Part shown: in pieces, positions 18,545 through 63,418 of the stretch | How positions within the stretch are numbered: position 1 is the first letter of the stretch | Layout: each line of letters opens with the position of its first letter | Origin: Halobacteriales archaeon YIM A00010 | GTDB taxonomy: Archaea > Halobacteriota > Halobacteria > Halobacteriales > Haloarculaceae | Assembly: GCA_025041175.1 (NCBI GenBank) | Contig: JAKCFJ010000002.1 | Coordinates: 744,001 to 808,000 of the forward strand | Direction of reading: 5' to 3' | DNA length: 64,000 nt | Notes under the pieces: generated by a model | What the model was told of the DNA's origin: nothing | What the model saw: only the letters and a program-made list of their open reading frames with translations | Database searches by the model: none | Translations under genes and position numbers: made by a program

Positions 18545-18808
18545 CTATACTGTCGGACCTGCGGACGGCGTGCGACGGACGAGCCAGCTGCTGTCGGGCG
18601 ATTCACCAGCAGCCGATACGTGATCACCCCAGTCCGACAGTATCAGGAGAGTACCGATCACGCTTGCCGTCACGAACTCTCTTCGTATGCCGAAGTAGAC
18701 GATCACGCCGAGGCCGATGGCGACCGATCCCCAGAACGCCTGGCGGGCGATGCGTCGTTGTCGTTCGCGAAACCCATATTCCGGCTTCGAAAGCCAGTCA
18801 TACAGTAG
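18545..18808 (-). pseudogene. Membrane protein fragment that reads through a family A element
   Basis: The minus strand has one long open frame without a start codon (a TAA stands just upstream). It reads YDWLSKPEYGFRERQRRIAR, then a hydrophobic segment FWGSVAIGLGVIVYFGIRRE, and then continues without a stop through the whole family A element (giving SDWGDHVSAAG...RRTPSAGPTV) to a TAG that abuts the outer end of the element. It is a 5'-truncated gene whose C-terminus was extended by the insertion. The family is not recognised. Confidence 0.45.
18548..18642. repeat. Family A inverted-repeat element (MITE-like)
   Basis: 95 bp with terminal inverted repeats TACTGTCGGAC / GTCCGACAGTA, and an inner hairpin (GCTGCTG / CAGCAGC). 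Near-identical to the copies at 63324-63418 and 43816-43910. Right flank TCA, left flank CTA. No coding capacity of its own, but one strand is open through its length. Confidence 0.85.
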
Positions 18809-21119: not shown

Positions 21120-21264
21120 CGACTGTCGACTCACAATTAGGAAAACGATTACCGCTCATCTTGCGGGTGAAATCACTTTTGGACGTGGTTTTGCCCGACT
21201 ACACCGAGCTGACCGCAACCTCAACCGAGATGGAGGTTGTGGAACGAGAGCGGACACCGCGTCA

Positions 21265-21470
21265 TAGGGACTGTTGTGATTCCTTTTCGCTGTGGCGACA
21301 CAGAACGGTTCGTGAAACCCCCGAGCCGTCGTCATACTGTCGGACAGAGATAGTTGAATATCGGCTGCTGGTGACCGCTAGACAGCAACTGGATATTCCG
21401 TCTCAGTCCGTACGTGACTCTGTCCGACAGTATCACTCAACGACCGTGCCGCTACTCACAACAGTCACTA
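21265..21470. repeat. Family C inverted-repeat element carrying a nested family A element
   Basis: Outer element with ends TAGGGACTGTTGTG / CACAACAGTCACTA, flanked by TCA on both sides (21262-21264 and 21471-21473). Without the nested insert it aligns over its whole length with the family C copy inside pabB (41138-41245). Its middle is interrupted by a family A element plus duplicated TCA. Confidence 0.85.
21335..21432. repeat. Family A element nested inside the family C element
   Basis: 98 bp bounded by TACTGTCGGACAGAG / CTCTGTCCGACAGTA-type ends and flanked by TCA direct repeats (21332-21334, 21433-21435). The uninterrupted family C copy in pabB shows a single TCA at the matching place, which identifies the duplication and the insertion order: IS first, then C, then A. 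Confidence 0.85.
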
Positions 21471-21671
21471 TCAGCTCATGGAACTCGACATTCGACGCTA
21501 CCTTGCTGATCCCTCTCGTTCAGATACTGTTCGAGAAGGAGATACGTACGGTGTCGAACGATCACGAACGGTCGTACGACTGAGTAGACAAGTGCGATCT
21601 ACAGCCGATCACTGGCGCTTCGTCGAACTACGTTGGATTGATGAGCAGCAGTATTGGCTGTCCGCAGTCAC

Positions 21672-21879
21672 CAGAACGCAAAGCGATCTGACTGGCCCAC
21701 GAGAGCTGCGCTCTCGTGAACGTCACCGGAACTCTCCGAGTTCCGGTTGGCACGCAAGACCGAAGGTCTTGCGAACGTCCCCAGAATCCTTTGGATTCTG
21801 GTGTGCGAACGAGACGCGGAGCGTCTCGTGAACGTCGCCGGACTACGTCCGGCTGGCTCATCAGACTACCGTCTGATGA
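21672..21879. repeat. Array of eight small triloop hairpins, ~28-nt period
   Basis: Eight consecutive inverted repeats with 3-nt loops (last one 4): 21672-21690 (one mismatch), 21698-21718, 21725-21747, 21753-21773, 21781-21801, 21809-21829, 21837-21853 and 21858-21879. Stems are 7-10 bp and all different in sequence (for example CCAGAATCC TTT GGATTCTGG, then ACGAGACGC GGA GCGTCTCGT). Centres are 23-28 bases apart. The short spacers alternate between AACGTC and TGGC types, so the basic unit is a hairpin pair of about 55 bp. The array interrupts the IS6 transposase gene. The flanking GCAGTC / GCTGTC may be a target duplication. Confidence 0.85.
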
Positions 21880-22446
21880 ACGCTGTCGATCCTCAAACGA
21901 ACAGACTGCTGTACAGACGGCTGTTTTCGACGGCTACAACCACCCTTACTGCAATATCTCTGCGAGAAGTAACCGGGAAACACGACGTCAAGAACGCCGT
22001 GTCTCTCGTTGATGGAGCAAAACAGCTTCAGACGACACGCCGTCGCTGAAGACTCTGATTTCAGACACGAACGCCACGGACATCCGAATGTCGAACGTGT
22101 CTTTCATGAGGTAAAACGACGAACCATCTATTTCCCAAACTGCTTCAGCAACACCAATATAGAAACTACCGATGGGTGTATCTTCGCGCAGGATAACGGT
22201 GGGGACCTTCTCACTGCCCCCCATTCCAGACGCTTGCGAGTCGATCTGGTCACTCGACAGATCTATGCTACCTCGCGCCGAATTCCGGAGATCCGTTTCG
22301 AAGGCATCAACAAATAGCATTCTGGTGGTTTCTAGTGGATATCCACACTTATAACGTAAATAAACATATTAAAACTATAATATACTTGTATTGAATTACG
22401 AGAGAGTAGTTTATGTGTTCACACACCATAGAACCCAGTTGGGACA

Positions 22447-28696: not shown

Positions 28697-29004
28697 ATGG
28701 ATGATGAGATTGGTGTCAACCCACCGGACCATCCTGTCTGGGACAACTCATTCTTGGTGAATCTACTGTTTCTTGCTCCAACCATCTTCCCGCTCTGGAT
28801 GTTTGTACGGGGGGCTCTCCGCTCGTCGGTGGCGGATTCACGGCAGCTCTGGTGTTAGTATTCACCATTTTGAAGGTTCGAGTGGTGTTTTTTGACGATC
28901 GGGAGGACCAACCGATCGTTGACTACGGCTCATACTGTCGGTCATGGTCCGCCGAACACGCAGTTGCCCGTTCATCACGCTCTCCGCGACACAGACCACC
29001 GTAA
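28697..29004 (+). pseudogene. Frameshifted small two-helix membrane protein ending in a family B element
   Basis: From the ATG at 28697 the frame gives MDDEIGVNPPDHPVWDNSFL and a membrane segment, then stops early at 28858. Adding one G to the G6 run at 28809-28814 would join it to a second frame with another membrane helix (FTAALVLVFTILKVRVVFF) and an acidic tail, DDREDQPIVDYGS. That frame then runs into the family B element and ends at a TAA inside it (29002-29004). So the gene carries a one-base loss and its natural C-terminus is replaced. Family unknown. Confidence 0.45.
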
Positions 29005-29030
29005 ACCGTACGTCAGTATGACCGACAGTA
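28933..29030. repeat. Family B inverted-repeat element (MITE-like)
   Basis: 98 bp with ends TACTGTCGGTCAT / ATGACCGACAGTA, flanked by TCA on both sides (28930-28932 and 29031-29033). Closely related to the copies at 42695 and 54181 and to the partial one at the window start. Confidence 0.88.
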
Positions 29031-40196: not shown

Positions 40197-40517
40197 TGTT
40201 GATGTCGGAAGTGGTGCTGTCAGTGCCCGTTCCCCGCGTCGTGGGTCCCGCCAATCGATACACTGCTGATAGCGATCCATCCAGCACGGTCTTACGTTTC
40301 ATCTTCGGTTCGGTTGATATAGTTGGGAAGGGGGAATAGTCCACCTGTTGAAGTAGCGGTGAATGTTCACCCAGACCCCATCGCTATTTCACGATCAAAC
40401 CGTTATCGTGCTGGCCGCGTGTACATCTCACGCAAGATTTTTGCCAGGGCCAATATATGGTCTCAAACAGCGCTATCGAGGACTGTACCCTGGTTCTCGT
40501 GGAGGCTATCGAATCAA

Positions 40518-42131
40518 ATGAGCGGAACAACGGTCGTCACAAAGAAGGAATCGTTCGTCGAGACCGCAGCGTCGGCGCCGCCCAGCGCTCGGATTCCGGT
40601 CGAGATACGCATCACCGTTTCGGACCCGTTCGAGGCGTACCGCCGCGCCCGTGAGCGCGACAGCGACGGATTCTACCTCGAGACCACCGGCGGACAGACC
40701 GGGTGGGGCTACTTCGGCGTCGAGCCGATCGAACGTCTGCAGGTGAATGCGGATGCGACGCCACGCGGTGCTGGCAGTCCCAGTATCGAGACCATCGACT
40801 CGTTGTTGGACCGCGAACAGCTCGTTCGCGGGGACTGTGATGTCCCCTTCCCCTGTGGCGCGTTCGGGTGGCTGTCGTACGACATTGCGCGGGAATTGGA
40901 AGACCTGCCAGCGACAACGATTCCCGATGGACTCCCTCGCCTCCAGCTCGGGGTGTTCGACTGCGTCGCTGCCTGGAAGGAGCCACGCGACGGTGACGTA
41001 CAGGTTCACGTGACCGCGTGTCCGATCGTCGGAGAGTCGGCGGTAGCGGCTTACGAAGAGGGACGAACGAACGCGACAACACTCGCCGAGGCGGCGCTGT
41101 ACGGGGACAGACGCATCCAGTCGTCCCCGATCGCTCATAGGGACTGTTGTGATTCCGTCCCGCTGTGGCGAAACAGAACGGTTCGTGAAACCCCAGAGCA
41201 GTCGTCAGTCAACGACCGTGCCGAAAATACGCACAACAGTCCCTATCAGGCGACGTTCGAGAGCGAGTGTGGCGAGACGGCGTTCGCTAACCGGGTACGG
41301 ACCATCAAACAGTACATCCGGGACGGCGATACGTTCCAGACGAACGTCTCACACAGGCTCGTGGCGCCTGCGGCGGTCCATCCAGTCGAGATCTTCGCCG
41401 CAGTGCGGCGGGTGAACCCATCACCATACTCCGGTCTGCTAGAATTTCCGGGCATCGACCTCGTCAGCGCTAGCCCGGAACTACTGCTGGACGTCGAAGG
41501 GAACCGGCTGCTCACCGAACCAATCGCCGGCACACGGCCGCGGGGCGACACGCCCGAAGAGGACGCGGAGCTGGAGCGTGCTCTCCGCACCGACACCAAA
41601 GAGCGCGCCGAACACGCGATGCTCGTTGACCTGGAGCGCAACGACCTGGGCAAGGTGAGCGAGTACGGGACTGTCAACGTCGCGGAGTACCGCCGCGTCG
41701 ATCGTTATTCGGAGGTGATGCACCTCGTCTCGCTCATTGAAGGACGGCTGTGCGATGACGTGAGCGTCGCCGACGCTGTCGCGGCCGTGTTCCCAGGGGG
41801 CACCATCACCGGCGCTCCAAAGCCCCGGACGATGGAGATAATCGACGAGGAGGAGAGGACTCGCCGCGGGCCGTACACCGGAAGTATCGGCGTTTTCGGG
41901 TTCGACGACCGGGCCACGCTGAATATCACCATCCGGACGCTGGTCCGCCACGAGGATGAGTACCGACTACGCGTCGGCAGCGGCGTAGTCCACGATTCGG
42001 TGCCCGAAACGGAGTACCAGGAGACACTGGACAAGGCACAGGCGCTTGTGACGGCTCTCGACGAGGCGCTGGGCGAGCAGGGGTCGTTCGCCGTCGGAAC
42101 CAGTACCGACCCGATGGAGGGGATCCGGTGA
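40518..42131 (+). CDS. pabB: Aminodeoxychorismate synthase component I with an in-frame MITE
   Basis: Converts chorismate and ammonia to 4-amino-4-deoxychorismate for p-aminobenzoate and folate synthesis. 537 residues from the ATG at 40518 (a longer frame begins at 40323). N-terminal Anth_synt_I_N part (about 20-200) and the chorismate-binding domain (about 250-520) with [56 protein letters not shown] and [12 protein letters not shown]. Residues 207-243 are encoded by a family C element lying in the linker between the domains, with no stop and no frame change. Assignment to PabB rather than TrpE rests on the folate neighbours. It overlaps pabA by 4 bp (GTGA). Confidence 0.88.
41138..41245. 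repeat. Family C element inserted in frame within pabB
   Basis: 108 bp with ends TAGGGACTGTTGTG / CACAACAGTCCCTA, flanked by TCA on both sides (41135-41137, 41246-41248). Element plus one TCA is 111 bp, that is 37 codons. Removing it joins GCT-CA to G-GCG-ACG and gives a continuous pabB reading. Same family as the element at 21265-21470. Confidence 0.9.
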
Positions 42132-42694: not shown

Positions 42695-42799
42695 TACTGT
42701 CGGTCATGGTCCGTCGAACACTCGGTTGCCCGTTCACCACGCGTCCCATCGCCGCGACACAGACCACCGGTCGACGTCATGTAATTATGACCGACAGTA
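42695..42799. repeat. Family B element at the pabA stop codon
   Basis: 105 bp with TACTGTCGGTCAT / ATGACCGACAGTA ends. The flanks are TGA (42692-42694, the stop of pabA) and TGA (42800-42802). The insertion used the stop codon as target and left it intact. Confidence 0.9.
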
Positions 42800-43815: not shown

Positions 43816-43910
43816 CACTGTCGGACAGGGGTGATCGCGCCTCGGCTGCTGGTGACCCGCCGGACAGCAGTTGGCTAGGCCGTCGCACGCCGTCCGCAGA
43901 TTCGACAGTA
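43816..43910. repeat. Family A element at the folE stop codon
   Basis: 95 bp, ends CACTGTCGGAC (one mismatch to the consensus) / TCGACAGTA, flanked by TGA on both sides (43813-43815 is the folE stop; 43911-43913). Orientation is opposite to the copies at 18548 and 63324. Confidence 0.88.
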
Positions 43911-54180: not shown

Positions 54181-54279
54181 TACTGTCGGTCATACTGACG
54201 TGCGGTCGACGGTGGTCTACGTAGCGGATAGGACGCGTGGTGAACGGGCAACGTGTTCGACGGACCACGACCGACAGTA
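54181..54279. repeat. Family B element at the stop codon of the copy-1 dehydrogenase
   Basis: 99 bp with TACTGTCGGTCAT / ACGACCGACAGTA ends. Right flank TCA (54280-54282) is, on the minus strand, the TGA stop of the dehydrogenase gene. Left flank is CCA, one base different. It separates the two paralogous dehydrogenase genes. Confidence 0.88.
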
Positions 54280-63323: not shown

Positions 63324-63418
63324 TACTGTCGGACCTTCGGACGGCGTGCGACGGACGAGCCAGTTGCTGTCTGGCGGGTCACCAGCAGCCGAGACGCGAT
63401 CACCCCTGTCCGACAGTA
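63324..63418. repeat. Family A inverted-repeat element (MITE-like)
   Basis: 95 bp with ends TACTGTCGGAC / GTCCGACAGTA-type, flanked by TCA on both sides (63321-63323 and 63419-63421). It lies in the intergenic region between the DmdA-like gene and the Bat-type regulator and is nearly identical to the 18548 copy. Confidence 0.88.

Follow-up and report, generated by a model that had tools for sequence, protein, structure and literature searches.

The nested element and its host gene

The window, i.e. the whole 64,000-nucleotide stretch of DNA analyzed (G000:C2:744001-808000), belongs to a genome of 5.97 Mb in seven contigs; its best matches are haloarchaeal. It carries an IS6 transposase gene interrupted by a composite MITE, C[A], in which an element A lies inside an element C. 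The features are as follows:

21224..21261, + strand, IS6 transposase remnant before the composite (flank-joined reading frame)
21262..21264, no strand, left TCA of the outer target duplication (read directly from the sequence)
21265..21470, + strand, composite MITE C[A], 206 bp, with the ends TAGGGACTGTTGTG / CACAACAGTCACTA
21332..21334, no strand, left TCA of the inner target duplication at C position 67 (read directly)
21335..21432, + strand, nested A element, 98 bp, TACTGTCGG..CCGACAGTA (read directly)
21433..21435, no strand, right TCA of the inner target duplication (read directly)
21471..21473, no strand, right TCA of the outer target duplication (read directly)
21474..22047, + strand, IS6 transposase remnant after the composite (flank-joined reading frame, interrupted by a hairpin array at 21698-21879)
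41138..41245, + strand, C element of the simple form, 108 bp, lying within a chorismate-binding (pabB/trpE-type) gene, with a TCA duplication at 41135-41137 and 41246-41248

Direct reading of all parts confirmed the originally predicted nest of A in C in the IS6 gene with its TCA duplications. After removal of A and one TCA, a C backbone of 105 bp is left in the window copy. This backbone had been equated with the simple C copy in the chorismate-binding gene, which holds for the layout, but not for the sequence, as 10 substitutions and a 3-bp gap distinguish the two. The window A is identical to the A elements nested at G000:C1:1361564 and C2:118347.

Removal of C and one TCA had been claimed to rejoin the transposase frame, and the joined flanks indeed yielded an IS6 frame with which a homologue is collinear. 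With the hairpin array also removed, the 132 joined residues matched IS6-family transposases at 52-54% identity, and 13 consecutive residues across the join, VERERTPRQLMEL, are those of the Natribaculum luteum IS6. The claimed insertion of C, now C with A, into the IS6 gene is supported. The insertion site is empty in the IS6 homologue, which is a homologue and not a sister strain; Pfam gave no recognition of the IS6 fragment. The gene is disrupted twice, by the composite and by the hairpin array downstream, and the IS6 transposase in the window is dead. A second IS6 copy at G000:C2:118306 (L004/L011) carries this composite too, inserted at the identical IS6 position, with a 93% match to the window over 429 bp running into IS6 and a 93% match over another 270 bp of IS6. 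Since it shares its IS6 flank with the window, it was not counted as an independent site.

Two families of MITE-like elements

The elements are 95-108 bp long, have inverted ends and contain no transposase gene; target duplications and many copies, also typical of MITEs, were found for both C and the A/B elements. Ends with TNATACTGTCGG occur 389 times in the genome (188 forward, 201 reverse) and once in the control. TCA or TGA duplications flank 37 of the 46 intact C elements from the fetched loci, while one has CGG and eight have none. A 3-bp TNA duplication is present at 69 of 89 TACTGTCGG-ended elements, compared with a frequency of about 0.00065 for random window places 100 bp apart, and the target is TA..TA in 10 of the 89. 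Because of these duplication frequencies, the structure in the window is not a product of chance. The proposal of two MITE-like families, defined by these ends and by TNA as their target, is supported. Six further TACTGTCGG-ended elements lie in the window, four of them with TCA or TGA duplications:

18548-18642, further TACTGTCGG-ended element
28933-29030, further TACTGTCGG-ended element
42695-42799, further TACTGTCGG-ended element
43816-43910, further TACTGTCGG-ended element
54181-54279, further TACTGTCGG-ended element
63324-63418, further TACTGTCGG-ended element

Composite elements in the genome

A search of the genome itself with the 212-bp stretch gave 44 matches, at least 159 bases being covered in 10 of them. 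For the set of C elements, fetched loci matching either the nest or simple C were used if both ends were recognizable. This gave 46 elements, a partial set for which 40 of 79 candidates were scored in one search and outside of which the truncated copies L011/L004 and L052 stand. It comprises 28 simple and 18 composite elements, the latter in four layouts: A at position 67 of C (eight copies), B at 67 (six), a B-type element at 48 (three), and one triple composite with a B-type element at 48 plus A at 67. Nested elements thus occupy only the positions 67 and 48. Units of one, two and three elements measure 108 bp, 206-218 bp and 319 bp, respectively.

A at C position 67 was found at nine sites (eight plain, one triple), always with the same join and orientation and always with an outer TCA/TGA duplication; among all 18 composites, this duplication is absent in two (L058, L059). 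The flanks of the composites, compared over up to 1 kb, are unrelated except for a 96-bp stretch at a neighboring TACTGTCGG element and one 24-bp match, which rules out that the nest was multiplied by segmental duplication, the second IS6 copy being the exception.

The original prediction had read the locus as an ordered record of three transposition events, and had named recurrence of the nest at unrelated sites as the sign that it moves as one unit. The nest is indeed present at nine sites, all of which have separate outer duplications, and the claimed order of events falls with this result. Because the same nest is present at eight other unrelated places, A probably did not jump into C at the window locus; what arrived there was probably a composite MITE assembled earlier, or the inner part of one. 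The nest is real but was wrongly taken as local history: it is a composite MITE family, a nested variant of known MITEs.

The reading we prefer on the basis of these comparisons is that of a composite MITE which spreads as a ready-made unit, with later exchange between copies (probability about 0.7). The non-coding, inverted-repeat A element of 98 bp would have entered a TCA of the 108-bp C a single time, in an element from which most C[A] copies descend, and the identical nests elsewhere suggest that this event most likely took place outside the window locus. With the outer C ends still usable, a trans-acting, TNA-duplicating transposase would then have mobilized C together with the A it contains. 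As the outer duplications are separate and the flanks unrelated, the unit probably arrived at new sites, presumably including the IS6 gene of the window. Later recombination among dispersed copies would have swapped arms, so that parts of one copy differ in history.

Origin of the nest

In the tree of A elements, eight of the ten nested copies (L009, both L010, L011, L012, L013, L014 and the window) group in a single clade (99/95) that excludes the 49 solo A elements, and the nested A of L015 and L016 fall among the solo ones. A single clade for all ten nested copies was not rejected (AU p 0.28; 0.128 without L016). The base after the inner TCA is C at eight of the nine sites with A at 67 and G in all 26 simple 108-bp C elements. 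Based on the eight-copy clade and this base, a single nesting event probably gave rise to most C[A] copies. L016 has G after the inner TCA, and in the C tree its C falls together with three simple copies (L041, L045, L048); L016, and perhaps L015, may represent separate nestings at the same TCA. The C backbones of the C[A] copies are not one clade (five changes on the tree, weak support).

The window copy and L009, its closest full-length relative, have a common 3-bp deletion, which is absent from all 26 simple C elements of 108 bp, and they show no difference in the insert (0/98) or the right arm (0/35) despite different flanks. Judged from sequence agreement, the clearest cases of unit movement are two other groups. 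The C[B] copies L017, L029, L030 and L031, 218 bp long and at four unrelated sites, differ at 1-3/67, 0-2/107 and 0/38 positions, and the C[A] copies L013 and L014, also at unrelated sites, differ at 0/67, 1/98 and 2/38.

Other nests

Five simple C elements that are not themselves flanked by a duplication (L042, L043, L046, L123, L127) lie at unrelated sites inside a third element D, TACTGTCGGTCAGAAAG.., the D[C] total being 209-210 bp. The outer duplications are TCA on both sides in L123, TGA on both sides in L046, and TGA..TCA in L127. L042 (G000:C1:1731094) and L043 (1726535) differ at 1/209 positions, are inverted relative to each other about 4.6 kb apart, and have crossed duplications, TCA..TGA and TGA..TCA; this pattern is likely an inversion scar from recombination between them. 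A in B occurs at two sites (L013, L101) with 21/205 differences, while C in B (L034), A in B (L064) and B in A (L066, L102) are single cases. At L065 (1192-1408), two head-to-tail B elements have one common TCA in between.

Probable exchange between copies and alternative explanations

An unlikely alternative is that the nest spread mainly by gene conversion, recombination with a composite having copied A and an arm into simple C elements pre-existing at many sites, so that the outer duplications would be those of older C insertions. In three pairs of copies, mismatches are concentrated in the left arm: the window and L009 differ at 6/67 positions there and at 0/133 in insert plus right arm (Fisher p 0.0012), the window and the second IS6 copy (L004) at 4/34 and 0/133 (p 0.0015, a figure tempered by the only 93% identity of the shared IS6-side match), and the L010 pair at 4/67 and 1/136 in the rest (p 0.042), all p values being post hoc and uncorrected, for non-independent pairs chosen after the distances had been seen. 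Rate differences do not explain this mismatch, because the arms of simple C are equally divergent (0.087 per site on the left, 0.089 on the right) and solo A is more so (0.139). Also, the left arm of L009 is only 1/67 from a simple C, and the crossed duplications of the inverted D[C] pair fit recombination as well. However, the full-length agreement of L013/L014 and of L017/L029/L030/L031 at unrelated sites needs no conversion, the tract of which would have to span the whole element each time. Shared history of all parts is seen for these two groups, not for the window and L009.

Under the preferred reading of unit movement with later exchange, part of the window copy may have come by gene conversion. 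Left-arm mismatch and crossed duplications together suggest recombination between dispersed copies, which would make the order of events unreadable from the window locus.

A hot spot in C, one TCA of which A (and B) entered several times independently, would account for A, and B in six copies, both being at position 67, for the two B-type elements at position 48, and for the A copies of L015 and L016 outside the main clade. C has only five TCA/TGA sites, two of them near the ends, and position 67 scores best of the five against C insertion sites (1.9, compared with -0.14 and -0.45 for the two remaining inner sites). The eight-copy A clade, the common TCAC base and the 3-bp deletion of the window and L009 would be left unexplained, and we regard this explanation as very improbable. 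Hardly credible is the purely local history, C into IS6 and then A into that C, which the local sequence alone allows: an identical A and right arm with the 3-bp deletion lie between unrelated flanks at L009, and every other copy would have to stem from the window copy, C landing in IS6 first.

In a more far-reaching reading, which is less likely than not, C would be a docking MITE, the inner TCA/TGA sites of which repeatedly capture MITEs (A or B at 67, B-types at 48, both in the triple composite). Despite complete inner ends, the compound might go on using its outer ones, and its parts might be shuffled by ectopic recombination; one archaeal genome would then build modular mobile elements from blocks of about 100 bp.

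Putative helper transposase and distribution of the elements

The 30 PF01609 loci read, out of 38, were without a pair of such ends or TNA-flanked inverted ends, and for PF13358, 8 of 8 loci were without matching, duplicated ends. The pairing of ends was confined to contig C1 and covered 93 forward and 99 reverse ends, out of 100 listed for each direction, left ends already pairing at about 100 bp being counted as MITEs. No helper transposase, originally predicted to lie elsewhere in the genome, was found among these 30 PF01609 loci, 8 PF13358 loci and C1 end pairs. Three end pairs of 0.9-1.2 kb (L063, L065, L099) each consist of two MITEs with other DNA between; in the 2.05 kb pair from 1729227 (L100), the right end belongs to a D[C] copy. 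Candidate ends at L052 and L053 are a truncated C[B] and a lone end. At L063 (849-1761), a gene for a HAD-type hydrolase (943-1668) has an A-type MITE with a TGA duplication on either side, and the whole only looks like a 913-bp transposon. The TNA target recalls IS5-type IS427/IS1031 elements. Assignment as an IS5-family (IS427/IS1031-type) MITE is not supported, as a matching DUF4096-type transposase (PF13340) was found in 0/146 family genomes including the own one, with 5 of 14 controls positive.

Searches of 58 relatives, of 145 other family genomes with few candidates scored in each, and of plasmid and phage records revealed no composite. The exact join pattern matched 19 stretches in genome contigs, of which the five haloarchaeal ones, read individually, contain no composite and the other 14 are bacterial; the single match in viral contigs is not a composite either. 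Rfam gave no match. Elements with TACTGTCGG ends, about 105-109 bp long and flanked by TCA/TGA, occur in other family genomes (e.g. L050, L114, L117, L118, L120), as does a C-like element of 109 bp (L109), and A-like matches were obtained in one plasmid each of Halalkalicoccus jeotgali and Natrinema.

Comparison with known systems

Like other prokaryotic MITEs, the elements are short (95-108 bp), have inverted ends and a short target duplication, and are present in many copies with no transposase inside; unlike these, they are stacked, the stack is a family of its own, and no helper with matching ends was found. A composite transposon such as Tn5 is also a mobile element built of mobile parts, whereas here one element lies inside another and the unit is bounded by the outer ends only.

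In Haloquadratum walsbyi, MITEs occur together with SMRs about 110 bp long, mobile elements tend to insert into one another, and MITE movement is noted where no functional helper exists (PMC3119063). Common to both systems are the length of about 110 bp (SMR-A), many copies and element-into-element insertion; in contrast, SMRs have no target duplication, the described material contains no multiplying nest, and Table 5 gives 0/192 events of a MITE inserted in a MITE (PMC3119063). Identity with the Haloquadratum SMRs was ruled out by the target duplications present here (37/46 C, 69/89 TACTGTCGG-ended elements). Tandem MITE arrays of corals also form a MITE unit larger than one element, but they are eukaryotic and consist of one family, whereas here one family lies inside another with both duplications kept (PMC2872659). 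Composite transposons and Russian-doll elements are mentioned in general terms in two further sources (PMC10969869, PMC3852290). Among the literature surveyed, mostly as titles and abstract beginnings, no paper on MITE-in-MITE units multiplying in a prokaryote was found.

Nested repeats are often taken as local layers that give the history of a site; this reading fails here, which becomes visible only genome-wide. The system is also a natural test of transposase choice between outer and inner ends, and of the frequency of recombination among short dispersed repeats in a haloarchaeon.

In-frame C elements and the hairpin array

The simple C in the chorismate-binding gene adds, together with its TCA, 111 bp or 37 extra residues, and the frame (window 40323-42128) is open throughout. 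It thereby resembles the palindromic elements that lie in frame in Rickettsia genes. Open frames are also found in other simple copies of C, none of them placed in a known gene.

The hairpin array in the IS6 gene (window 21698-21879) consists of seven perfect hairpins with stems of 7-10 bp, different in each hairpin, and loops of 3-4, spaced at about 28 bp and connected by linkers such as TGAACGTC. Since just two hairpins are present at the equivalent place in L004, the sister copy of IS6, the array has probably expanded or contracted since the two copies separated. A stretch with similar hairpins has matches in 103 of 146 family genomes, and in several of six loci read, hairpins lie near tnpA/tnpB-like (IS200/IS605) genes, as judged by eye.
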